Source of the DNA: a virus
IMG/VR virus record: IMGVR_UViG_3300007519_000030
Coordinates: 1-40,292 of that record
Direction: 5' to 3' (one strand)
Length of the DNA stretch: 40,292 nt
The position numbers and the translations under genes are program-made. A model generated the notes under the pieces. That model made no database searches, had not been told where the DNA came from, and saw only the letters and a program-made list of their open reading frames with translations. Positions 3,475-25,013 of the stretch are shown here, piece by piece (the stretch's first letter is position 1; each line of letters begins with the position of its first letter).

Positions 3475-3933
3475 ATGATTTTAAAAAGAAAAGAACAAGA
3501 AGGTGTAGTTAAAGCTATTTATTCATCGTCTAACATTTGTGCATCAACGTATAACAACTTAACAAACGATTTAACGTTGATTTTTACGTATGGTGGTCAA
3601 TACCTATATAAAGGTGTTTCAAAAACAGATTATACACGTTTTGAACTTGCTGATAGTCAAGGTTCAATATTGAGTAGTCATATAAAAAAATACTCTAGTG
3701 AAAAGTTAGGTGGTATTGATGTTACTGAGATGATTAAAGAAATAAAAGAATTAGAGTTGGTTGGAGATACATCGACACCAGAATCTAGAACAAAAGAATT
3801 ATTAGAAGCTATGAGTACTATTATTGCTAATTACTTTAAGAATGGTAATGTTACGAAAGCATCGTTAAAAGGTTTAAAAGATAATATTAGTAATTTAGAA
3901 AAAATAACTACAAATAACGTAACTATTGTTTAA
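3475..3933 (+). CDS. KTSC-domain protein
   Basis: 152 residues. Residues about 15-75 fit the KTSC domain: a YNNLTNDLTLIFTYGGQYLYKGVS stretch split by short turns, then ...SQGSILSSHIKKY, matching the family pattern of a beta-hairpin followed by Y-x-GV and a KG/S..xxHI helix. The family is common in phages and often linked to nucleic-acid proteins, but its role is unknown. The C-terminal 70 residues are helical and charged. It ends 7 nt before the thymidylate synthase start. Confidence 0.7.
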   Translation: MILKRKEQEGVVKAIYSSSNICASTYNNLTNDLTLIFTYGGQYLYKGVSKTDYTRFELADSQGSILSSHIKKYSSEKLGGIDVTEMIKEIKELELVGDTSTPESRTKELLEAMSTIIANYFKNGNVTKASLKGLKDNISNLEKITTNNVTIV

Positions 3934-3940
3934 ACATATA

Positions 3941-4258
3941 ATGAATAAATTAGATAAAGATTATCAAAATATACTTAGGGATATAATAGATTTTGGTATT
4001 AAAAAGGAGGATAGAACTGGTACTGGTACTCTTTCATTGTTCTCTCATCAAATAAAACATGATATGTCAACTGGATTCCCTTTGTTAACAACAAAAAAAA
4101 TGTTTACCAAAGGAATTATAACTGAATTATTATGGTTTCTTAAAGGAGATACAAATATAAAATATCTCGTGGATAATGGTTGTAATATTTGGAATGGGGA
4201 TAGTTATAATTTTTACTTAAAAGAATGTGAAAAATTAAAAAAAGATAACAATAATTAG
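3941..4258 (+). CDS. thyA: Thymidylate synthase, N-terminal piece
   Basis: 105 residues from ATG 3941 (an upstream TTG in frame is less likely because it overlaps the previous gene). It carries the ThyA N-terminus: EDRTGTGTLSLF with the phosphate-binding Arg, FPLLTTKKMF, and ELLWFLKGDTNIKYLVDNG...IWNGD. It then runs into a short tail (KKDNNN) and stop. The next part of the enzyme (residues after about 105) is encoded by the separate frame at 5004. Product: half of the dUMP methylase of dTMP synthesis. Whether the halves associate or are joined at RNA level cannot be read from sequence; see the GIY-YIG gene. Confidence 0.9.
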   Translation: MNKLDKDYQNILRDIIDFGIKKEDRTGTGTLSLFSHQIKHDMSTGFPLLTTKKMFTKGIITELLWFLKGDTNIKYLVDNGCNIWNGDSYNFYLKECEKLKKDNNN

Positions 4259-4278
4259 TAGTTCTTATACCCATCACC

Positions 4279-4287
4279 ATATTTATA
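4279..4287 (+). promoter_or_regulatory. Putative late promoter box for GIY-YIG gene
   Basis: ATATTTATA, 13 nt before the ATG at 4301 and inside the thyA interruption. Same box and spacing as before several late genes. Known parallel: the I-TevI gene in the T4 td intron also has its own late promoter. Confidence 0.45.
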
Positions 4288-4300
4288 TATAAACTAAAAT

Positions 4301-5017
4301 ATGGAAAAAAAATATTATTTATACATTAAGACGAGCCCAATAGGGTTAAGGTATCTAGGTAAAACAACAAAAGACCCGTTTATATATTTAGGTAGTGGTA
4401 AAATTTGGAAGCGTCATATTAAAAAACATAATTTGACGATTGGTGATATTAAGACCGAGATTGTTTTTGAAACAACCGATATTGACAAGTTAATTGAAAA
4501 AGGACTTGAATTGAGTTTATTGTACGATGTTGTTAAGTCAAAAGAATGGGCTAATTTGAGAGAAGAAATAGGTGACGGTGGAGATACATCTAAATTTATA
4601 GATTATTCAAACCCAACATTTCACAATCCAGAAAATAGTAAACACTTGAATGATTGGTTGAAGAATGTTAGTGATGATGAAATAAAAAAAATACTTAGAG
4701 AACGAATCGAAAAAGTTGATTTTAAGAAAAGAGCTGATAAAGCAAAGAAAAATACTGATTGGGATAGTTGGAGAGAATCAATAAAAAACAGGAAAACAGA
4801 TTATTCATTCCTAAATAAAGTACATGAACAGAGTAAAAAACCTATTTATCAACTTAATTTAGATGGTGAAGTTATTGATGTGTTTAGTTCAGCTGTAGAT
4901 GCCGCTAATGTGTTAAACATAAATGTTGGGGGGATTGGACATTGTTTAAGAGGTAGGAATAAAACCGCTGGTGGTTATAAATGGAAATATAAAAATATAG
5001 AAGATGAAAGCAAATAG
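4301..5017 (+). CDS. GIY-YIG homing endonuclease with NUMOD-type DNA-binding repeat
   Basis: 238 residues. N-terminal GIY-YIG-like nuclease module (YYLYIKTSP...LRYLGKT, then IYLGSGKIWKRHIKKH with the conserved Arg/His region, and Glu at ELSLLYD...), followed by LREEIGDGGDTS. The central part is basic and helical. The C-terminus has a NUMOD1-like unit: KPIYQLNLDGEVIDVFSSA, then a helix and GGYKWKY. It interrupts the thymidylate synthase gene, beginning 43 nt after the first half's stop and overlapping the second half by 14 nt. That leaves no room for a group I intron core, so I read it as a free-standing seg/mob-type gene inserted in thyA. Confidence 0.85.
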   Translation: MEKKYYLYIKTSPIGLRYLGKTTKDPFIYLGSGKIWKRHIKKHNLTIGDIKTEIVFETTDIDKLIEKGLELSLLYDVVKSKEWANLREEIGDGGDTSKFIDYSNPTFHNPENSKHLNDWLKNVSDDEIKKILRERIEKVDFKKRADKAKKNTDWDSWRESIKNRKTDYSFLNKVHEQSKKPIYQLNLDGEVIDVFSSAVDAANVLNINVGGIGHCLRGRNKTAGGYKWKYKNIEDESK

Positions 5018-5801
5018 AAATGATTTACATGAAAGTGGTAGACCTTATACACAAGAAGAATTTACTGATAGAATTAAAACTGATATTAAATTTGCTAAAA
5101 AATGGGGTGATTTAGGTCCAGTATATGGAAAACAATGGAGAGCGTGGGGTGGGTATAAACTAGTACCTTCTTCTTACTATCATGGTAGTGTTACACATTT
5201 TGATAGGCAACCAATTTTAGACCAAATTAAAGAGTTAATACACAGTTTAAAAAATGACCCAGACTCAAGACGATTGATTGTCTCAGCTTGGAATGTTGGT
5301 GAGATTGACAAGATGGTTTTACCGCCTTGTCATTGGGCATTTGAGTGTTATACTGAAGAATTAAGTGACGAGGAAAGGGTTAAATTGGCTGGCGGTACTA
5401 TCCAAGTAAAATATCCAGCACTAACAATTAAACAAATTAAATCTTGTGATGAAAGAAACATACCAAAAAGAAAACTTAGTCTTAAATGGCATCAAAGAAG
5501 TGTTGACACATTTTTAGGTTTACCATTTAATATAGCATCTTATGGTTTGTTATTAGAAATGTTAGCTAAGGAGGTTAATATGGTTCCTAGTTTTTTAATA
5601 GGTGATTTAACCAATGTACATTTATATTCTAATCATATAGAACAAGCTAAAGAACAGTTGAGAAGAGATTCATTTGACTTACCTAGATTGGAGATACATG
5701 GTGAACCTATTGGTTCTGACATATCAGACTATAACATTGACCAATTTAAATTTACTGGGTACGAATCACATCCAACGATAAAAGCTCCTTTATCGAATTA
5801 A
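5004..5801 (+). CDS. thyA: Thymidylate synthase, C-terminal piece
   Basis: 265 residues starting at ATG 5004 within the end of the endonuclease gene. It contains WGDLGPVYGKQWRAW, DPDSRRLIVSAWN, the catalytic Cys in LPPCHWAFE, WHQRSVDTFLGLPFNIASYG, and HLYSNHIEQA; all standard ThyA motifs are present. The extra segment before WGDLGP (TQEEFTDRIKTDIKF) is the form seen in longer phage and bacterial enzymes. N- and C-pieces together cover a full enzyme without obvious loss, which argues that function is kept despite the break. A terminator follows at 5807. Confidence 0.92.
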   Translation: MKANRNDLHESGRPYTQEEFTDRIKTDIKFAKKWGDLGPVYGKQWRAWGGYKLVPSSYYHGSVTHFDRQPILDQIKELIHSLKNDPDSRRLIVSAWNVGEIDKMVLPPCHWAFECYTEELSDEERVKLAGGTIQVKYPALTIKQIKSCDERNIPKRKLSLKWHQRSVDTFLGLPFNIASYGLLLEMLAKEVNMVPSFLIGDLTNVHLYSNHIEQAKEQLRRDSFDLPRLEIHGEPIGSDISDYNIDQFKFTGYESHPTIKAPLSN

Positions 5802-11258: not shown

Positions 11259-14200
11259 ATGTTAACAACACAAGAAATATTTCAAGAGTATGCTCATTGT
11301 CTTACTGATTCTGTTCATGCTATTGAGACATATTTAGAAACGTTCGATAAAACGCAAGAAGGTTTCGTACCTTTTAAATTATTTCCTAGACAAAAAGAAA
11401 TAATTAAAGCATATGATAAACATAGATTTAATATTGTAACAAAACCACGTCAAGCTGGTGTATCAACAACAACCGCTGCATATATGTCAATCAAAGTAGG
11501 TTTTGGTGATAGGGATAACCCAGAGAATATACTTATTATTGCCAATAAACAAGAACTTGCATTTGAATTCTTAGCTAAGATTAAAGATTTTCTTGGTCAA
11601 TTACCTAGATGGGTATGGGGAAGTGAGTATTGTGGTGATGCTAAAAAGGACGCCAAATCAATTTTTATTACAGATTCAAAAAAAGAAATAAAATTACCTA
11701 ATGGTAGTCGTGTTAAAGCGGTTGCTACATCTAAAGATGCTTTGAGGGGTTTTACACCTACATTTCTTATCATGGATGAGGCTGCATATATTGATAATGG
11801 TGCTGAAGTTTTTGGTGCCGCACTTACAGCTTTAGGATGCTTAACAAAAGATTCGTTAATTTTAACTGAAAATGGTTTAATTCAACTTGATGAATTAGTT
11901 TCTGAAAAAGATAAAATAGGTTTCACTGATTTGGAGTTACCACATAAAGTTTGTAATAAAGATGGTGATATTGTTAATGCAACTCAAACTTTTGTTAGTG
12001 AATATGGTCAAACATTTAAAATAAAAACTAAATTAGGTGTTGAATTAGAGGGGAGTTGGAAACATCCTATCTTAATTGATAGGAATGGAACTGAAAATTG
12101 GGTTCGTATGAACGAATTAAAAATTGGTGACAAACCAATAATTCAATATGGTCAAAATTATTTTAGTGATAATAGTGAAGTAAATTTTGTTTTCAATAAA
12201 ACCAAAAATAATAAAAACATCACAATACCTAAAAAGCTTGGTGACAATTTAGATTTTTCTTATTTATTAGGTTTATTCGTAGCTGAGGGTAATTTTAATT
12301 CAAGAGGTATTACCATCACAAATATTGACGATTATATAACAAATTTTCTATTAACAGATAAAGCTTGTTTAGGTAACGCATTTAAAAAAGTTGATGACTT
12401 CCATTATCAATTTCACTCAACCGAATTAATTGAATGGTTTAAAATGTTTGGATTGGATAAACATAACGCTAGGGATAAAGAAATACCTTTAGCGTTATTA
12501 AAGATGCCTAAAGATGTTATTAAAGCATTTTTACAAGGTATGTTCGATGGTGATGGTATGAGTACTATAAAAGATATTAAATATTCAAGTACATCTAAAA
12601 AACTAATTCAAACTCTACAAACTTTATTGTTTAATTTTGGTATTATATCACATGTTAAATATGAAGAACAAAAAACATCTAAATCATCAATATTAAAAAA
12701 TAAAAAACATATTTGTAAAATTTACAACTTAAAAATATATTCAAATTATGCAATTAAATTTTATGACGAAATTGGTTTTAGATTAGATAGAAAACAAAAT
12801 AATAAACAATTTTTATTAAATAAGAAACAAAACTCAAGATTTGTTAATGTAAGTAATAAAGAAATTTTAGAAGTTTTACAAATAAATAATATAGTTAAAA
12901 CTAAAGTTAGATTTTTAGAAAGATTTTGGAAATCAGACTTAAATAGATTAAGTGTCGAATCATTAAACCGTTTATTATCCTTGTTACCAAATAATGCTTT
13001 TTTATTATCATTAACTGAACAATTAAAAAGACAAGAATTATTTTATATTGATGAAATTATTTCTATAACTGAGTCAGAAGATTATACTTATGATTTACAT
13101 GTACCAGAAACAAATTCATTTATTTCAAACGGTATTATAAGTCATAATACTGGGGGTCGAGCAACACTTATATCCTGTGTTACTGAAGATACTTTTATTT
13201 TTACTGATACTGGTTTACAACAAATGAAAGACATTATTAATTATGATGAACCAGATATACCTAATTTAGGTTATTATGTTAAAGAATATAATATTAGAGG
13301 AAATAATATATCTAGGAAATCAAATTTAATTGTTAATAATGGTTTTCAAGAAACTATAAAATTAACAACTACTAATTCAGAACTTGAGTCGACTGAAACA
13401 CATAAATTGTGGTCTTATTCAAATAAAAAAAACAAATATGATTGGTTTACGGTTAGTGAATTAGAAATTGGTGATTATGTTAACGTACAACATTCGTTTA
13501 ATATTTTCGGTAATAACGATACTATTGATTTTGCCTATGAGTTTTCAAATAGAGAAAATAAACCAAAAATAATTTATGATAAAATAAATACTGATTTAGC
13601 TTATCTAATTGGTTTATATTTATCAGAAGGGTCTTGTTATAAACCAAAAAATATTGATGGTATTATTGTTGGTTGTGATATTACGATATCATGTGGTGAT
13701 GATGTTGGTACATACATATCTAATGCTGGGTTTGATTATTCATCACACGATAATTTACACTATAAAATTTCATCTAAATATTTAGGTAGTTTGTTAGAGT
13801 ATTTGGGTTTTGATTTAACCTTAAAAGCACCAAATAAATTAATACCTAGACGTTTACTTGAAATGGGGCGTGAAAATATTATTGCTATGTTACAAGGTAT
13901 TATGGATGGTGATGGTTATTCTGATAATATTAGAGGTAGGGTAGGTATAAATTTATCCTCTAAAAAATTAATTCAACAAATAAGGTTTTTATTTTTAAAT
14001 CTTGGTATATTAACTGATTATTCAGAAGAAATAACACCACCAACTAAAAAAGTTAAAGTTAGTAGTCAATATTATAGACTTTCATCGACATCTATTGATG
14101 CGGATAAATATTACGATACCATTGGTTTTAGATTTAATAGGAAACAAATAAAAAGAGACCAAAATAAATTAGTATCATATAATAATGGATATAGAATAAT

Positions 14201-16925
14201 ACCAAACGGTAAAAATATAATTAGAAATATTATAGACGAACATAAATTAGTTAAAAAATTATCTAACACTGGTTTACTAGTTAATAAAATTAGAATTTCT
14301 AATAAAAACAAAACAGCTAATTTATCAGTAAATATTTTTAATGAATTTATAGATTATTTTATTAATGTTTTAAATCTTGATTTATCCAGATATTCAATTG
14401 ATAAAATTAATTTTAAAGATTCAAAATGGGTTCCAATAACTAAATTAGAAAAACTTAAAAATAAAACATATGATGTTTCATTACCCGAAACTAATGATTT
14501 TTGGTGTCATTCCGTTATTTATAATGGTATATTAGGTCATCAAACACCTAATGGTATGGATTCTTTATATTATAAGACTTATGACCAAGCTAAAAATAAA
14601 AAGAATAATTTCAACATTGTTGAGATGAGATGGTTTGAAGATTTACGTTATAATAAAGACCTTAGATGGATTAAAGGGGACCTTTTGGAGAAAGAGGTTG
14701 AGTTTACATTTAAAACATATTCAGAACGAATAAGTGATGGGTGGAAACCTACATCGAGTTGGTATGAAGAGATGTGTTTAGGTATGAATAATGATTCAAA
14801 AATGATTGCACAAGAATTAGATGTGTCATTTATTGGTTCTGGTGGTAACGTTATTAATGAAGAGTATATTGAATATCAAGATAAAAATAATGTAAGAGAA
14901 CCTAAGTATATGCATGGTCTAGAGCAAGAGACTTGGATATGGGAAGAACCTATTGAGGGTCACCAATATATTTTAGGATGTTTACCACCGAATGAAAAAG
15001 TCTTAACCGATAAAGGATTGGTAAATATTGAAGATGTTGATATTAATGATAGGTTAATAAGTGAAGATGGTAATTATGTAAATATAATTAATAAACAAAT
15101 TTACCAAGTGGTTGATGAAGATGTGTTTGAAATGCAAATGGATAATACATTTAGAACAACAACATTTACTAAGGAACACCCAATTTTAATTAGTAAATCT
15201 AATTTAAAACGAAATTATGATAAAAATAATGATGAATATAAATTTAATGATAGGTATTGGGATTTTGATTTTAATTATACTAGGGTAGAAGAGGTTGAGA
15301 TTGGGGATTGGGTCAAGGTGCCGAATATTTATAAAGAGTCAATTAAAAGTGGCTATAATAATAAATGGAAGATAGATAATGCTGTCAGATGTGAATTTGA
15401 ATTTGAGTCACCATTGTTTGAGAACGATTTTTGGTGGTTTATGGGTATGTGGTTAGGTGATGGGGGATTAGATAAAAATAAACACTCATATGCAATATCG
15501 TTATGTTTTGATAAAAAACATGAAGGTTATATTGAGAAATGTAAAGATATAATAAAACGATTATTTAAAAGTTCACCATCATTTATCGATAAAGGTAGTA
15601 CTTTTGAACTAGTGTTTAATTCTAAATTTTTATATTATTTCATATTAGAAAATTTCGGACAATACTCACATGGTAAAAAAATATCAGAATGGGTTAAGTT
15701 TATATCTGATGAAAATAAAAAAGAATTAATTAGAGGGTATTTTGATAGTGATGGGTGTTGGGTTAAAACTCAGAAAAACGGGAAGAAATATTCTAAGGTA
15801 AGTTTTGTTAGTACCAATTTAGAATTATTGGAGTCGGTACAAGATATTATTTTTTCATTGGGAGTTGTTTCATGTTTAGATAAGTTACGAGATGCTAAAA
15901 TTACAATAATTTGTGGTCGTGAATGTCAACAAAGCGAGACCTACAATTTAACTTTAGGTAATCATGACAGTTTGGATTTAATAAAATTAATTTATAAAAC
16001 TGATGATATTAAGTTAAATAAATTTGATATTGGTGATTTTAATGCCAAGAATAAACGAATCATTAGTTCTTGTCATTTTGATGATAATAAAGATTATATT
16101 TATTTTAGAGTTAAAAAAATAAATAAGAATAAGTTCACTGGGAATGTATATAATTTTGAATGTGATACTAATACTTTTATGTGTCACCATATAACAACCC
16201 ATAATTGTGATGTATCTAGGGGTGATAGTGAGGATTCATCAACTATCGTTATTATAGATTTCACCACAATGGAGGAAGTTTTAGAGTATCAAGGTAAAAT
16301 ACAACCAGATTTATTAGCTCAAATTGTTGAAGAGTATGGTAATCTATATAAAGCGTATACAGTAGTCGATGTTACTGGTGGTATGGGTGTTTCTACGGTA
16401 CTTAAATTATTAGAATTCGATTATAAATATTTACATTATGATAGTAATAACGGTAAAATACTTTCTGCTAGACAAAGAGAGTTAACGTCTTATGATAAAG
16501 GTAGTAAAATACCAGGTTTTCACGCAACAAATGTTCGTGTACCAATGATTTCAAATCTAGAATATCAAATAAGAACAAATGGTATTAAGATTCGTTCAAC
16601 TAGAATGATTTCAGAAATGAAAACATTTATATTTAAAAATGGTAGACCAGACCATATGGATGGATATCACGATGATTTACTTATGTCATTGGGTATGGGT
16701 CTTTGGGTAATGGAACATTCATTTAAGAATTTGGAAAGATTAGAAAAACAAAACAAAGCAATATTAAATAGTTGGGCTACTGGTAATCAAATTTCATCAA
16801 CTACTAATAGTTATAATAAAGAGACTAATAAATCTGAAGTTAAAATAAATCCAAATCATTTGGCATATAAAAATATACAAGACCCAAAAGGTGAGTATGC
16901 TTGGTTATTTGGAAGAAGAAAATAA
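11259..16925 (+). CDS. terL: Terminase large subunit with three inteins
   Basis: 1888 codons, of which 1302 are intein; the spliced protein would be 586 residues, normal for a T4 gp17-like TerL. Packaging ATPase: Walker A-type TKPRQAGVSTTT at residues 61-72, Walker B FLIMDEAAYI at 169-178, coupling region GGRATLIS-TPNGMDSLYY split by intein 2. Nuclease (RNase H fold): ILG-CDVSRGDSEDSS with the first catalytic Asp right after intein 3, VVDVTGGMG, and a final HDDLLMSLGMGLWV with a metal-binding Asp pair. Cleaves concatemers and pumps DNA into the prohead through the portal. Exteins are 1-193, 631-639, 1096-1240 and 1650-1888. No small terminase is recognisable nearby. Confidence 0.96.
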   Translation: MLTTQEIFQEYAHCLTDSVHAIETYLETFDKTQEGFVPFKLFPRQKEIIKAYDKHRFNIVTKPRQAGVSTTTAAYMSIKVGFGDRDNPENILIIANKQELAFEFLAKIKDFLGQLPRWVWGSEYCGDAKKDAKSIFITDSKKEIKLPNGSRVKAVATSKDALRGFTPTFLIMDEAAYIDNGAEVFGAALTALGCLTKDSLILTENGLIQLDELVSEKDKIGFTDLELPHKVCNKDGDIVNATQTFVSEYGQTFKIKTKLGVELEGSWKHPILIDRNGTENWVRMNELKIGDKPIIQYGQNYFSDNSEVNFVFNKTKNNKNITIPKKLGDNLDFSYLLGLFVAEGNFNSRGITITNIDDYITNFLLTDKACLGNAFKKVDDFHYQFHSTELIEWFKMFGLDKHNARDKEIPLALLKMPKDVIKAFLQGMFDGDGMSTIKDIKYSSTSKKLIQTLQTLLFNFGIISHVKYEEQKTSKSSILKNKKHICKIYNLKIYSNYAIKFYDEIGFRLDRKQNNKQFLLNKKQNSRFVNVSNKEILEVLQINNIVKTKVRFLERFWKSDLNRLSVESLNRLLSLLPNNAFLLSLTEQLKRQELFYIDEIISITESEDYTYDLHVPETNSFISNGIISHNTGGRATLISCVTEDTFIFTDTGLQQMKDIINYDEPDIPNLGYYVKEYNIRGNNISRKSNLIVNNGFQETIKLTTTNSELESTETHKLWSYSNKKNKYDWFTVSELEIGDYVNVQHSFNIFGNNDTIDFAYEFSNRENKPKIIYDKINTDLAYLIGLYLSEGSCYKPKNIDGIIVGCDITISCGDDVGTYISNAGFDYSSHDNLHYKISSKYLGSLLEYLGFDLTLKAPNKLIPRRLLEMGRENIIAMLQGIMDGDGYSDNIRGRVGINLSSKKLIQQIRFLFLNLGILTDYSEEITPPTKKVKVSSQYYRLSSTSIDADKYYDTIGFRFNRKQIKRDQNKLVSYNNGYRIIPNGKNIIRNIIDEHKLVKKLSNTGLLVNKIRISNKNKTANLSVNIFNEFIDYFINVLNLDLSRYSIDKINFKDSKWVPITKLEKLKNKTYDVSLPETNDFWCHSVIYNGILGHQTPNGMDSLYYKTYDQAKNKKNNFNIVEMRWFEDLRYNKDLRWIKGDLLEKEVEFTFKTYSERISDGWKPTSSWYEEMCLGMNNDSKMIAQELDVSFIGSGGNVINEEYIEYQDKNNVREPKYMHGLEQETWIWEEPIEGHQYILGCLPPNEKVLTDKGLVNIEDVDINDRLISEDGNYVNIINKQIYQVVDEDVFEMQMDNTFRTTTFTKEHPILISKSNLKRNYDKNNDEYKFNDRYWDFDFNYTRVEEVEIGDWVKVPNIYKESIKSGYNNKWKIDNAVRCEFEFESPLFENDFWWFMGMWLGDGGLDKNKHSYAISLCFDKKHEGYIEKCKDIIKRLFKSSPSFIDKGSTFELVFNSKFLYYFILENFGQYSHGKKISEWVKFISDENKKELIRGYFDSDGCWVKTQKNGKKYSKVSFVSTNLELLESVQDIIFSLGVVSCLDKLRDAKITIICGRECQQSETYNLTLGNHDSLDLIKLIYKTDDIKLNKFDIGDFNAKNKRIISSCHFDDNKDYIYFRVKKINKNKFTGNVYNFECDTNTFMCHHITTHNCDVSRGDSEDSSTIVIIDFTTMEEVLEYQGKIQPDLLAQIVEEYGNLYKAYTVVDVTGGMGVSTVLKLLEFDYKYLHYDSNNGKILSARQRELTSYDKGSKIPGFHATNVRVPMISNLEYQIRTNGIKIRSTRMISEMKTFIFKNGRPDHMDGYHDDLLMSLGMGLWVMEHSFKNLERLEKQNKAILNSWATGNQISSTTNSYNKETNKSEVKINPNHLAYKNIQDPKGEYAWLFGRRK
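11838..13148 (+). mobile_element. TerL intein 1 with LAGLIDADG endonuclease
   Basis: 437 residues, from Cys (CLTKDSLILTENG) to ISHN, Thr+1. HINT blocks flank a LAGLIDADG-type domain with motifs LLGLFVAEG (about intein residue 145) and FLQGMFDGDG (about 232). Insertion between ALTALG and TGGRATLIS. Confidence 0.93.
13176..14543 (+). mobile_element. TerL intein 2 with LAGLIDADG endonuclease, ends in Gln
   Basis: 456 residues, from Cys (CVTEDTFIFTDTG) to ILGHQ, Thr+1 (TPNG). Motifs YLIGLYLSEG (about 143) and MLQGIMDGDG (about 238). The last residue is Gln in place of the usual Asn, with the penultimate His kept. Only nine extein residues separate it from intein 1. Confidence 0.92.
14979..16205 (+). 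mobile_element. TerL intein 3 with LAGLIDADG endonuclease
   Basis: 409 residues, from Cys (CLPPNEKVLTDKG) to ITTHN, Cys+1. Motifs WFMGMWLGDG (about 152) and LIRGYFDSDG (about 250). Sits directly before CDVSRGD, the first catalytic motif of the TerL nuclease. Confidence 0.93.
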
Positions 16926-17243: not shown

Positions 17244-20200
17244 ATGTCAAATAAAAATTCAACATTATTTCAAAGATTAGGACAAGTTGTAAGTCCAGAA
17301 GGTATTAAAGTTCAAAAACAACAGTCTCAAAGATATAACATAGGAGATAATGAATTACTTAAAACAAATAGTAAACAAGAGTATGATACTGCTAAATTAC
17401 AAGCACAACAAAAAAAATATTTAGGTCAAACATGGAAAAAGGTAGAGAGTGGTTTATTCCAACAATCTATTAACTATGAAACGACTAGAATTGGTTCTTA
17501 TGTTGATTTTGAGGCTATGGAATTTTATCCTATTATAGCGGCTGCTTTAGATGTTATGATGGAAGAATCAACCACAGTTAATGATAGTGGTAGAATGATT
17601 AATATTTATTCTGATAGTAAACGTGTTAAAACTATATTGGAGGATTTATTCTTCAATAGATTAGATTTACACACGTCTTTACCTATGTGGACAAGAAATA
17701 CTTGTAAATATGGTGATAATTTTTTATATTTAAATATAGATGAATCACAAGGTGTATTAGGTGGTAAACAGATGCCTAATTATGAGATGGAACGTAGAGA
17801 ATTTGGATTATTTGATATGATTTCTGGTCGAGAAACTACTATAGATGAAGGTTCTGATAGTGGTAAAGTTAAATTCTTTTGGAGAGGTCGTGATGTTGAA
17901 TTTAATTCTTGGCAAATTGCTCATTTCCGTTTATTAGGTGATGATAGACGTTTACCTTATGGTACGTGTTTAAAATATAATTCTAGAGTTGAGACAAGTG
18001 ATGGGTATAAGGAGATAAAAGATATTGTTATTGGTGATATGGTTTATTCATTTGATGAGATAAATCAAGTTAAAGTATTGTCAAAAGTATTGGATACTAT
18101 TAATTCTGGTAATAAAAAAACTTATAAACTTAGTACCAAACATAATTTTATAGACGCATCTAAAGAACATAAGATAATGTATTATAATACCGAATTAAAT
18201 AAATTCGATTATAAAAATACGCTAGATTTTAAAGTAGGTGATTTATTGGTTGTTGATAAAATTAATCTAAATAATGTTAATGTTCCAATAATAAGGCAAA
18301 AAAATAAATATGATTTAATTGGTAATAGGTTAACTAACGATTTTATTTTAGAACCGATTAAATCAATTGAGGAAAGTGGTGAACACGAAACATACGATAT
18401 ATATGTTGAAAATGATAATCATAATTTTTATGCAAATGGTATCGTTGTCCATAATTCTGTATTAGAGAAAGCTAGACGTATTTGGAAACAACTTATTTTA
18501 TCTGAGGATTCAATGCTTGTATATCGTGTTACTAGGGCACCAGAGAGACGTGTATATAAAATTTATGTTGGAAATATTGATGATGCAGATGTTGAACAGT
18601 ATGTTAATACTATTGCTGATAGATTTAAACGTATGCCAATTACTGACCCACAAACTGGTCAAATTGATTTGCGTTATAACCAATTATCGAACGACCAAGA
18701 TTTTTTCATTCCAGTTAGAACTGAAGATGCTCCTAACCCTATCGATACATTACCTGGTGCTTGTATCGCATTAGATACTCGTATACCATTATTAGATGGT
18801 AGAACATTAGAGTTAAATGAAATAATAACTGAATGGAATAATGGTAATAGAAACCTTTGGGTTTATTCATGTGACCCAATTTCTGGTGCACTTGCACCAG
18901 GTGTTATTACTTGGGCTGGTGAAACTAGAAAAAATACTGAGGTTATGAAAATAACATTGGATAATGGTGAGTCGATTACAACTACACCAGACCATAAATG
19001 GGTGCATAGAACCAAAGGGTTCGTTGAAGCTCAAGATTTAGTTATTGGTGATTCGTTAATGCCTTTCTATAGAGATGAGGAATATATACTAAAAAAGAAA
19101 TATTCTAAAAAATATGAAAGAGTATGGGATTCGTTAAAACAAGAATGGGTGTTCACACATAGAATGGTTAATAGTTTTATGAAAGATAAAAATAAAGAAA
19201 ATTATTTTACATTTGAAGGTGATTATTATAAAACTAAGATGAAAACTATTCACCATGTTGATAACGATAGATTTAATAATGTACCTAAAAATTTAACGTT
19301 AATGAATTCAAGAGACCATTATCAATACCATAGGCATGAGTTATGGTCTACTCCAGATAAGGCTAAAGAAAACATACGTAAAATAACTAAAGGTATTAAT
19401 AAGTTCATCTCTAATCAAACAGAAGATGAGAAATCAATTAGAGGTGAACAATCTAAATTAAATTCAATTAATTCTAGAATTAAATCTAATGAAACATTTA
19501 ATAATAATCTTAATAAATATGGGATTATTAAGTTAAGAGGTGAAGCCATTAGTAAAGCTAAATCAACTGATGAATTTAAAGAAAGTTTTTCTAAGATAGC
19601 CAAAGAAAACTGGGAATCTGACGAATACAGACGTAAAGTATTTAGTAAGAAACAAACAATCACATTTAGTGACAAACTTTATAATATGTTCTTTGAAATG
19701 TTTAAACTTTGTGGTAAAGCTGATTTGACATTGGTTGAACTAAATTCAAATGAAGATTTCATGACTGAGTTTACGGATTCAAATAAAGACATTAGAAGCT
19801 CACTAACAAACCTAAATGAATTTACACGTAATCATCTAGATAAGATGATTAAAGAACGTGGGTTTAAGAATTACAGAGACTGGTGTAAAGTAACAGCTGA
19901 AGAGTTAGGTTATAAGAACGTAATAGCTTGGAGATATTATATTGAAAAGTCTAATAAATCTGTTGAAGAAGCCAACTATAATCATAAAATAGTTAATATT
20001 GAATGGTTAAAGGTTAAAGAAGATACTGGTACAATTACCGTAGATGGTGATGAATTATACCATAATTATCATACATTTGCAACAGAAGCTGGTAACTACT
20101 TGAAAAACAGTAATTTAGACCAAATTGCTGATATTGAATATTTAAGAAGTAATTTATTTACAGCTTTGCGTGTACCTAAACCTTTCTTAGGTTTTGATGA

Positions 20201-21158
20201 GACATCTGGTGATGGTAAAAATTTAGCGATACAAGACGTTCGTTTTTCTAGAACAATAAATAGAATACAGCAATCTATGCTACAAGAACTTAACAAGATT
20301 GCTATTATACATTTATATATTTTAGGGTTTGAGGATGATTTAGATAATTTCACACTTACATTAAATAATCCATCAACACAAGCTGAAATGCTTAAAATTG
20401 AAAACTTACTACTTAAAGTTTCATTACTTAAAGATGCAACATCCGATATTGGAACTGGATTTAGTACTATGTCATGGACTCGTGCTCATAGAGAGATATT
20501 AGGTTGGTCTGATGATGAAATTAAACAAGATTTACTTGAACAAAGAATGGAGAAAGCTGCTGCTGCTGAATTAGCTAATACGGCTAATGTAATTAAACAT
20601 ACTGGTATGTTTGATACGGTTGATAGAATTTACGGTGATTACCAAGCTGCTTTAGAAGGTGGTGCTGGTGGGGAAGCTGGTGGTGTAGAAGCTGGTGGTG
20701 GTGGAGAAACTGGTGGTGGCGGATTAGGTGGTGGATTTGGTGGCGGATTTGGTGGCGGTGGTACTGGTGGTGAAGACTTAGATTTCGGTGATGCTGAAGA
20801 TGGGGGTGCTGATGAGGTTGCTGATGAGGGTGCTGATGAGGGTGCTGATGGTGGATTAGGTGGAGAAGCTGGTGGTACTGGCGCAGAATCTGGTGGTGAA
20901 GACTTAGATTTCGGTTCAACATTATCTGAAAATATTAAAAGAATTGATAAACAATTAACTGAAAGGAAAAATAATTTAACTGCTAAATTAAATAAACGAA
21001 CCAAAAAATACGAAAGTAAATTTATTGATATCTTAATTGAGGCTGTAAAGCCAAGCAACAAAGATAAAGGTGAGAAAACTAAAGTTTATGATAAAAACAT
21101 TAAAATTAATAATGATATTGATAATATGATTGATGATATTGATAAAATGTTAGAGTAA
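17244..21158 (+). CDS. Portal protein (T4 gp20-like) with two inteins
   Basis: 1304 codons; without the inteins (163 and 449) 692 residues. Portal motifs: YYPII-like FYPIIAAALDVMMEEST near residue 95, FWRGRDVEFNSWQIAHFRLLGD, LPYGT-SVLEKARRIWKQLILSEDSMLVYRV (junction at intein 1), RAPERRVYKIYVGNI, DTLPGA-SNLDQIADIEYLRSNLFTALRVPKPFLGF (junction at intein 2). Forms the dodecameric ring at the capsid vertex that binds TerL. The C-terminus has an unusual Gly-rich and Asp/Glu-rich region of about 90 residues, then a basic helical tail. Starts 46 nt after the small gene. Confidence 0.95.
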   Translation: MSNKNSTLFQRLGQVVSPEGIKVQKQQSQRYNIGDNELLKTNSKQEYDTAKLQAQQKKYLGQTWKKVESGLFQQSINYETTRIGSYVDFEAMEFYPIIAAALDVMMEESTTVNDSGRMINIYSDSKRVKTILEDLFFNRLDLHTSLPMWTRNTCKYGDNFLYLNIDESQGVLGGKQMPNYEMERREFGLFDMISGRETTIDEGSDSGKVKFFWRGRDVEFNSWQIAHFRLLGDDRRLPYGTCLKYNSRVETSDGYKEIKDIVIGDMVYSFDEINQVKVLSKVLDTINSGNKKTYKLSTKHNFIDASKEHKIMYYNTELNKFDYKNTLDFKVGDLLVVDKINLNNVNVPIIRQKNKYDLIGNRLTNDFILEPIKSIEESGEHETYDIYVENDNHNFYANGIVVHNSVLEKARRIWKQLILSEDSMLVYRVTRAPERRVYKIYVGNIDDADVEQYVNTIADRFKRMPITDPQTGQIDLRYNQLSNDQDFFIPVRTEDAPNPIDTLPGACIALDTRIPLLDGRTLELNEIITEWNNGNRNLWVYSCDPISGALAPGVITWAGETRKNTEVMKITLDNGESITTTPDHKWVHRTKGFVEAQDLVIGDSLMPFYRDEEYILKKKYSKKYERVWDSLKQEWVFTHRMVNSFMKDKNKENYFTFEGDYYKTKMKTIHHVDNDRFNNVPKNLTLMNSRDHYQYHRHELWSTPDKAKENIRKITKGINKFISNQTEDEKSIRGEQSKLNSINSRIKSNETFNNNLNKYGIIKLRGEAISKAKSTDEFKESFSKIAKENWESDEYRRKVFSKKQTITFSDKLYNMFFEMFKLCGKADLTLVELNSNEDFMTEFTDSNKDIRSSLTNLNEFTRNHLDKMIKERGFKNYRDWCKVTAEELGYKNVIAWRYYIEKSNKSVEEANYNHKIVNIEWLKVKEDTGTITVDGDELYHNYHTFATEAGNYLKNSNLDQIADIEYLRSNLFTALRVPKPFLGFDETSGDGKNLAIQDVRFSRTINRIQQSMLQELNKIAIIHLYILGFEDDLDNFTLTLNNPSTQAEMLKIENLLLKVSLLKDATSDIGTGFSTMSWTRAHREILGWSDDEIKQDLLEQRMEKAAAAELANTANVIKHTGMFDTVDRIYGDYQAALEGGAGGEAGGVEAGGGGETGGGGLGGGFGGGFGGGGTGGEDLDFGDAEDGGADEVADEGADEGADGGLGGEAGGTGAESGGEDLDFGSTLSENIKRIDKQLTERKNNLTAKLNKRTKKYESKFIDILIEAVKPSNKDKGEKTKVYDKNIKINNDIDNMIDDIDKMLE
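17967..18455 (+). mobile_element. Portal intein 1 (mini-intein, no endonuclease)
   Basis: 163 residues, Cys (CLKYNSRVETSDG) to VVHN, Ser+1. Only HINT blocks are present (EHKIMYY as block B, DFKVGDLLVV, ETYDIYVENDNHNFYANGIVVHN in two parts); no endonuclease motif. Joins LPYGT to SVLEKAR. Confidence 0.92.
18762..20108 (+). mobile_element. Portal intein 2 with HNH endonuclease
   Basis: 449 residues, Cys (CIALDTRIPLLDG) to GNYLKN, Ser+1. Block B is TTTPDHKWVH. An HNH nuclease core (IHHVDNDRFNNVPKNLTLM, then HYQYHRH) lies near intein residue 163, followed by helical DNA-binding-like segments. The penultimate residue is Lys, not His. End placed by extein continuity: LPGA joins SNLDQIADIEYL. Confidence 0.87.
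20651..20925 (+). repeat. Gly-rich low-complexity region in portal gene with 25-bp direct repeat
   Basis: Encodes GGxGG runs, then ADEGADEGAD (12-bp units, GCTGATGAGGGT type). A perfect 25-bp repeat at 20765-20789 and 20891-20915 encodes GGEDLDFG twice. Opposite-strand open frames here are composition effects. Confidence 0.8.
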
Positions 21159-23147: not shown

Positions 23148-25013
23148 ATGGATAAAGATATAAAAACGTTAAAACGTGGGGAAAGTGGTTATGGCTACTT
23201 AATAGAGCATGATGCTGGTTACATATCTCCAGATGAACCAAGAAATTTACCTTTCATCAATGAGATGAAAAAACTTGAAAGTGGTAAGTTGGTTATAGCG
23301 GAACCATTGTTGGTGTATGTAGTATTGCAGAAGTTTGGAATACTTAACCGAAATGGTCGTATATATCCAGAGTCTATTCTTAGAAGCCAAGATAGACTTT
23401 ACCAAGAGGTCATTAGGGAACGTAGAGCTGTGGGTGAACTAGACCATCCAGAATGTCACCGACAAAGTGCTGAAATTTTAACAAAAGATGGTTGGAAATA
23501 TATTAAAGATGTTTCTTCAAATGAAGAAGTATACACTTTAAACCCAATTTCAAACCAAATAGAACTAAAGACTATAACAAAAAAAATAGTTAAACATTAC
23601 AACGGTAGTATGATTTCAATAAAAGGTAGGTCAATTGACTTAATGGTCACACCTAACCATAAATTTTGGGTTATAGATAGAAACGGTAATGGAAGTTTTA
23701 TTACCGCTACAGACATACACGAACACAAGATTAAAGGTATTGATAAAATGTATATACCTAAAGTTGGTAAGTGGATTGGTGACGATAAAAAATTTTTTAC
23801 AATTAAAGGGTTAGATGAAAACGAAATAGCTTTTAATACCTCATACAGTAAAAAATTAGAATTGATGAGTGATATTGAGATACCAATGGATTTATGGGTC
23901 AAATTTATGGGAATTTATTTAGCCGATGGTTGTGTTGTGGTTAGTAAAACAAAAAAAAGAATATCTAGAGTAACTGAAAATGGTGAAAAAGAATATGGTT
24001 TTGAATCATCTGATAGTGGTTATGTTTGTAAAATAACACAGAAAAAAGAAAATGGTAAAATACTGATAAGAGAATTATTAGAATCATTACCATTAAGTTT
24101 TAAAGAAATAATATATTCAGATGGCAAAGTAGATTTTAAAATAAATGATGCTAGATTACATAATTATTTAAAACAATTTGGTAAATCACAAGATAAATTT
24201 ATACCAACTGAATTAAAAGGATTAAGTGATAATTTATTATCTGATTTTATAGATTGGTTCGTTTTGGGGGATGGTCGAGTTAGAGGTGGTAAATATCGAG
24301 AAGTTTTTAGTACTTCTAAAAAATTAATAAATGATTTACAAGAAATTATATTAAAAATTGGGTACTCATCTAATTTAAGAATTGAGGAACGAAATTATGA
24401 TAGAATGTTTGACAATAGAGTAATTAAAAAAGGTCATTCAAAACCAATGAATAGATTACATATTTCAACAACAAAAGGTATTTATTTAGATAAAAGAACA
24501 TTAAAAACTGAATTAGTTGAATATAACGATAATGTTTATTGTGTAGATGTACCTAATCATGTGTTCTATGTTAGAGATAATGGTAAAACTTGTTGGAATG
24601 GAAACTCATCTATTATTGCTGGTGATAGGATTTCACATAATATTGTTGAAACGTGGTGGGAAGGTCATACACTTATGGGTAAGATGGAAGTTATCATGAG
24701 TCCAGGTTTTGTAAACTTAGGTATCATATCTTGTAAAGGTGATGATGTTGCCAACCTATTAAGAAATAGAATTAAAATTGGAGTATCATCAAGAGGTGTT
24801 GGTTCACTTAAAGAGAGTAAAGATGGTCAACAAATAGTTCAAGATGATTACGAGATAATTTGTTGGGATGTAGTTACTGCACCATCTACCCCAGATGCTT
24901 GGATTGGTAGAAATCATGAAGAATTAAAACCTTACGTAGAGAGCTTAAATATTAAAAAACCATTACTTAATGAAAATCTTTTAGACGATTTAGATAAATT
25001 TTTATCTGATTAA
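23148..25013 (+). CDS. Prohead protease (T4 gp21-like) with intein
   Basis: 621 codons; spliced length 237, normal for the gp21 family of herpes-like serine proteases. Extein features: KFGILNRNGRIYP, then VGELDHPE with the catalytic His at residue 100, junction to SSIIAGDRISHNI, and RIKIGVSSRGVGSL with the catalytic Ser (residues 547-548 of the precursor), DYEIICWDVVTAPSTPDA. It removes scaffold and matures capsid proteins inside the prohead. The intein is inserted two residues after the catalytic His, so the unspliced precursor should be inactive. Confidence 0.94.
   Translation: MDKDIKTLKRGESGYGYLIEHDAGYISPDEPRNLPFINEMKKLESGKLVIAEPLLVYVVLQKFGILNRNGRIYPESILRSQDRLYQEVIRERRAVGELDHPECHRQSAEILTKDGWKYIKDVSSNEEVYTLNPISNQIELKTITKKIVKHYNGSMISIKGRSIDLMVTPNHKFWVIDRNGNGSFITATDIHEHKIKGIDKMYIPKVGKWIGDDKKFFTIKGLDENEIAFNTSYSKKLELMSDIEIPMDLWVKFMGIYLADGCVVVSKTKKRISRVTENGEKEYGFESSDSGYVCKITQKKENGKILIRELLESLPLSFKEIIYSDGKVDFKINDARLHNYLKQFGKSQDKFIPTELKGLSDNLLSDFIDWFVLGDGRVRGGKYREVFSTSKKLINDLQEIILKIGYSSNLRIEERNYDRMFDNRVIKKGHSKPMNRLHISTTKGIYLDKRTLKTELVEYNDNVYCVDVPNHVFYVRDNGKTCWNGNSSIIAGDRISHNIVETWWEGHTLMGKMEVIMSPGFVNLGIISCKGDDVANLLRNRIKIGVSSRGVGSLKESKDGQQIVQDDYEIICWDVVTAPSTPDAWIGRNHEELKPYVESLNIKKPLLNENLLDDLDKFLSD
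23454..24605 (+). mobile_element. Prohead protease intein with LAGLIDADG endonuclease
   Basis: 384 residues, Cys (CHRQSAEILTKDG) to TCWNGN, Ser+1. Block B LMVTPNHKFWV; LAGLIDADG-type motifs FMGIYLADG (about 151) and WFVLGDG (about 268). The penultimate residue is Gly rather than His. Junction GELDHPE|SSIIAGD restores the family sequence. Confidence 0.92.

Follow-up and report, generated by a model that had tools for sequence, protein, structure and literature searches.

The MCM gene of haloarchaea contains four close intein sites, and the paired inteins MCM-a and MCM-d interfere mutually in their homing into alleles that lack an intein (PMC10643990). That work treats it as an open question whether neighbouring inteins promote or impede one another's spread. 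Several inteins have also been described in the terminase large subunit (TerL) of mycobacteriophages, namely TerL1-a to -e and TerL6-f, and splicing and cleavage were demonstrated for several of them (PMC5050341).

The locus presented here is the TerL gene of a 40,292-nt stretch of viral DNA (the window, that is, the whole stretch that was analysed), in which three inteins interrupt a single open reading frame and the first two are separated by nine residues. With a probability of about 0.85, these two are separate class-1-type LAGLIDADG inteins located at conserved homing sites 27 bp apart, which probably arrived, and would splice, independently of each other. As in the window, the mycobacteriophage inteins lie in functional motifs of the ATPase domain, TerL6-f being placed in the C-motif as is the intein at site 2, and only one residue separates mycobacteriophage sites a and b. 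However, those terminases belong to other lineages, and two inteins in one protein are not described in the accessible text of that work (PMC5050341). The TerL of the Microcystis phage Mic1 (PMC7156551; L011) also carries two inteins, the larger at the equivalent of site 2 (G/C...HN/TPKG, slashes marking splice junctions), but the second one is far off, in the nuclease domain, unlike the adjacent pair of the window. The TerL intein of the crAss-like phage cr118_1 (L012) occupies the same site as intein 3 of the window (G/C...HN/CDP) with 37% identity, although it is a single intein in a different TerL lineage.

The TerL gene and its inteins

The features of the locus are collected in Table 1. 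Removal of the three inteins gives a predicted spliced TerL of 586 residues. The spliced protein is of the T4 gp17 type: it possesses the ATPase motifs and a nuclease domain, its sequence matches T4 gp17 (2.3e-19), and the predicted structure of an intein-free allele matches the gp17 fold. The Pfam matches of the open reading frame are LAGLIDADG_3 (E=1.3e-40) and Intein_splicing (5.2e-26).

Table 1. Coordinates of TerL and of other interrupted genes in the window
Feature	Position	Strand	Length	Description
TerL precursor (T4 gp17-type terminase large subunit)	11259..16925	+	1888 aa	Open reading frame; PHROG terminase matches
N-extein	11259..11837	+	193 aa	Walker A (PRQAGVST) and Walker B (LIMDEAA); alignment
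Intein 1 (site 1)	11838..13148	+	437 aa	C...HN/T; LAGLIDADG motifs LLGLFVAEG and LQGMFDGDG intact
Extein linker	13149..13175	+	9 aa	TGGRATLIS; mature TerL residues 194-202
Intein 2 (site 2)	13176..14543	+	456 aa	C...HQ/T (Gln at the C-terminus); intact LAGLIDADG motifs LIGLYLSEG and LQGIMDGDG
Middle extein	14544..14978	+	145 aa	Begins with C-motif TPNG
Intein 3 (site 3)	14979..16205	+	409 aa	C...HN/C; precedes nuclease motif DVSRGD
C-extein	16206..16925	+	239 aa	Nuclease domain; gp17 match of spliced protein
Portal protein (gp20-like)	17244-21158			Two inteins
Portal intein	17967-18455		163 aa	End HN/S
Portal intein	18762-20108		449 aa	End LKN/S
Prohead protease intein	23454-24605		384 aa	HPE/C...NGN/SS
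Thymidylate synthase	3926-5801			Apparently split
Thymidylate synthase ORFs	3926-4258; 5004-5801
Endonuclease ORF	4301-5017			NUMOD1 domain

A sequence-only reading of this DNA had proposed two large inteins in TerL, and its boundaries for both, with TGGRATLIS left between them, proved exact to the residue when compared with intein-free alleles; intein 3, which lies in the same open reading frame, was absent from it. Inteins 1 and 2 both begin with Cys and end in ...GIISHN/T and ...GILGHQ/T, respectively, and the linker between them is encoded by ACTGGGGGTCGAGCAACACTTATATCC. The closest relative of the window, the IMG/VR contig L038, is empty of inteins. Its uninterrupted TerL aligns with the spliced protein of the window over 586 of 586 residues at 97% identity (95.9% DNA identity). 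Since this intein-free protein can be aligned over its full length, the nine linker residues belong to the extein. More distant intein-free TerLs also read through the linker segment (for instance, TLATGGSAIINSTPNG and TLATGGQCMALSTPNG), and across 48 intein-free relatives there is no variation at residues G195, G196, S202, T203, P204, and G206. In the model of the L038 protein, T194 is the end of a helix and residues 197-202 form a strand that continues into the STPNG coupling motif; the linker residues are the turn and strand that precede the ATPase C-motif. A product with the nine residues deleted would therefore be devoid of invariant core residues. This product and a double excision, both foreseen by the sequence-only reading in case of splicing failure, are reasonable expectations from the sequence.

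With respect to splicing, both inteins show the termini of class 1 (Cys at position 1 and Thr at +1). The splicing blocks are GSWKH (block B), YTYDL (block F), and an SHN end in intein 1, and STETH (block B), KTYDV (block F), and a GHQ end in intein 2; the block B His, the block F Asp, the penultimate His, and the C-terminal Asn or Gln are present in both. Each intein also contains two LAGLIDADG motifs with acidic residues and is matched by Pfam LAGLIDADG_3, and the solved folds closest to the modelled inteins are those of LAGLIDADG inteins. Both inteins are predicted to splice and their endonucleases to be active, cleavage of the empty allele being suggested indirectly by horizontal spread and a pattern resembling conversion. 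In all full-length inteins the N-terminal Cys, the His of block B, the block F region, and a terminal His-Asn or His-Gln pair are retained, except that L035 has Tyr-Gln at the C-terminus. Wherever they could be read in double alleles, the splicing blocks are undamaged. The endonuclease motifs, intact in the window, are mutated or deleted in several relatives. Intact splicing blocks alongside decaying endonuclease motifs would be expected where an essential gene depends on splicing but not on homing.

The sequence-only reading had also supposed that splicing next to another folded domain would impose order and steric constraints. An AlphaFold model running from Walker B through both inteins contains two confident folds joined by a linker predicted to be disordered, the nine residues having pLDDT values below 50, and its pTM of 0.52 leaves the relative placement of the inteins uncertain. 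No steric bar is evident in this model, and nothing in it would require ordered splicing. Each intein would excise itself so that ...TALG-TGGRATLIS-TPNG... is joined (TALGTGGRATLISTPNG), and double excision would rebuild the strand leading into the ATPase coupling motif. Two independently folded inteins connected by a flexible linker of nine residues would tolerate such spacing with no need of a fixed splicing order.

Intein 2 and nearly all of its site-2 relatives end in Gln. Since inteins ending in Gln splice slowly in some cases and efficiently in the case of the CIV RNR intein (PMC4031507), it is only a guess that intein 1, which ends in Asn, may be completed ahead of intein 2. A kept regulatory device, by which the terminase would be inactive until two ordered splicing steps are done, the slow one being that of intein 2 with its Gln end, could account for the Gln end of the site-2 copies and for the core strand that, in the models, the nine residues would form only after both excisions. 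However, close relatives such as L038 have the same TerL without any intein, and occupancy changes often, which does not suggest a maintained function; this explanation is very improbable.

Other genes of the window are interrupted as well. The portal protein carries two more inteins: no endonuclease domain was found in the shorter one, and the longer one matches an HNH-endonuclease PHROG and ends without the usual penultimate His. In the prohead protease intein the penultimate Gly replaces His. In total, a region of about 13 kb with packaging and head genes contains six inteins. The thymidylate synthase gene is apparently split into two open reading frames, between which lies an endonuclease gene with a NUMOD1 domain. 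The interruption is either an intron or a split gene; there was no Rfam intron match in this region, nor any Rfam match in the whole 40,292-nt window.

Site occupancy and intein families among relatives

IMG/VR contigs were searched for relatives using the sequence of either intein, the spliced extein, and DNA patterns of the junctions. The TerL genes found contain no intein, an intein at site 1 only, at site 2 only, or at both, besides combinations that involve site 3 and two other sites. The two adjacent inteins are present in the window and in 14 other contigs, one of which (3300007522_000023) is a phage near-identical to that of the window, and the spacing is nine residues every time. Because the identical arrangement is found in 14 other contigs, the pair is neither a chance occurrence nor an assembly artefact. 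The proposal that two complete inteins flank an extein segment of nine residues is borne out.

The view that such close spacing is rare stands in part. Among the 120 TerL matches listed for a pattern located upstream of the sites, which is blind to inteins and retrieves mostly distant relatives, no intein was present at site 1 or site 2, and one was present at site 3. The pair, however, recurs at seven or more places on the TerL tree. The extein tree requires 19 changes for site 1, 12 for site 2, and 8 for the double state, at least 7 of the latter being forced by supported branches. Site 2 is also occupied in 12 of the 32 TerL contigs retrieved with the site-1 junction pattern. The raw co-occurrence of both inteins is high, but their association was not significant in a tree-based independent-pairs test, in which kinship is corrected for.

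On a tree of 60 inteins, the site-1 and site-2 inteins require one label change each, with SH-aLRT values of 71 and 90, respectively; the support of only 71 for site 1 and the uncertain domain order of the structural model are among the weak points of our preferred reading. Inteins 1 and 2 share 30% identity. They look like members of old, separate families of alleles, each specific for its own site. The deep separation of these families rules out that one intein was recently duplicated into the site of the other.

Intein size and position vary further in this group. The site-1 inteins of L154, L166, and L158 have shrunk to 226 residues without endonuclease motifs, and in L154 and L166 this short intein adjoins a site-2 intein with degraded endonuclease motifs. 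One additional TerL site lies in the nuclease motif GYHDD (GYHDD/C; L017 and L031, inteins of 373-374 residues) and another after AQE-(L/I)x (L036, L037, and L210, short inteins of 131-143 residues).

Linker DNA and the arrival of the inteins

The window, L016, L020, and L023 have both inteins in common at 94-98% DNA identity, in exteins that are only about 74-87% identical. Despite inteins that are 96-98% identical, the 27-bp linkers of L016 and L020 share 70% identity (8 mismatches, p=7e-6 at the divergence of the inteins) and those of the window and L016 share 78% (6 mismatches, p=3e-5). Transfer of both inteins and the linker in one event is rejected for these two pairs. The linkers of the window and L023 are 93% identical, a value equal to that of their inteins, and this pair taken alone would be compatible with joint transfer.

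The window linker is a mosaic whose first 14 bases match L016 and whose last 12 match L020 and L023. The first part includes a CGA codon that is present in the window and L016 and in no other allele compared. The last bases are nearly those of the empty sister L038, so that they may just have belonged to the recipient. Positions at which the window differs from L038 accumulate around the inteins: 14 fall within 15 nt of the three sites, versus 3.6 expected, and none of 20,000 permutations gave as high a number. This excess peaks at site 3 and is less marked at sites 1 and 2 (p=0.02).

These data bear on the possibility that the nine residues are part of one composite element, removed together with both inteins and inherited as a single insertion. 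The inteins are related and, as seen in the site-1 contigs, frequently found together. However, each one has its own complete splicing blocks, intein-free and single-intein alleles retain the nine residues, three of them (G195, G196, and S202) invariant, and the linker DNA has diverged like the host gene, with up to 8 of 27 bases differing between alleles whose adjoining inteins are near-identical. The composite element, which the sequence-only reading had itself named as the finding that would overturn it, has been examined on this evidence and fails, leaving it next to no credibility. Linker divergence, the mosaic, and the clustering of differences reject it and favour separate homing with short conversion on the linker side.

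It is also unlikely that the two inteins are linked in their spread, a single endonuclease cut transferring both so that an intein with a dead endonuclease hitch-hikes on its neighbour. Such spread would fit the near-identical inteins of the four phages and the equal linker and intein identity of the window and L023, as well as the broken site-1 and intact site-2 endonuclease motifs of L016 and L023. Nevertheless, in L016/L020 and window/L016 the linkers are much more diverged than the inteins, the linker of the window is a mosaic, many alleles have one intein only, and the excess of site-1 endonuclease decay in double alleles reaches only p=0.07 by lineage. Block co-transfer is unsupported for most pairs.

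The most likely history is a separate homing event for each intein, with linker-side conversion of less than 27 bp. As a more general proposal, to which we give somewhat less than even odds, two homing inteins of T4-type phages may invade sites 27 bp apart successively, with gene conversion ending within the 27-bp linker; the few informative bases of so short a linker carry this view of the conversion tract. If true, neighbouring inteins would stay independent even at a spacing that should lead to joint conversion and at which cuts at both sites would eliminate the linker.

Comparison with known intein pairs

In this phage group, alleles that are empty, occupied at site 1, at site 2, or at both form a natural series with sites 27 bp apart and with endonucleases intact or decayed, in a type of phage amenable to routine laboratory crosses. 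The TerL pair is also a compact substrate for asking whether inteins separated by so few residues limit one another in splicing.

We found no published natural intein pair at nine-residue spacing in the open-licence literature, and a scan of haloarchaeal MCM for intein spacing gave uninterrupted matches only, among the loci kept. Like the TerL pair, MCM-a and MCM-d occupy close sites in one ATPase gene, occur in single and double alleles, and favour separate homing over co-homing. In contrast, they belong to a cellular archaeal helicase in which homing was measured, whereas homing in the phage terminase is deduced from alleles, and the accessible text of that report states no spacing as short as nine residues, the TerL sites being 27 bp apart (PMC10643990). 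Neighbouring inteins were thus already known; what the window adds is a pair in the same protein only nine residues apart, recurrent in a phage group, whose linker DNA points to independent arrival.
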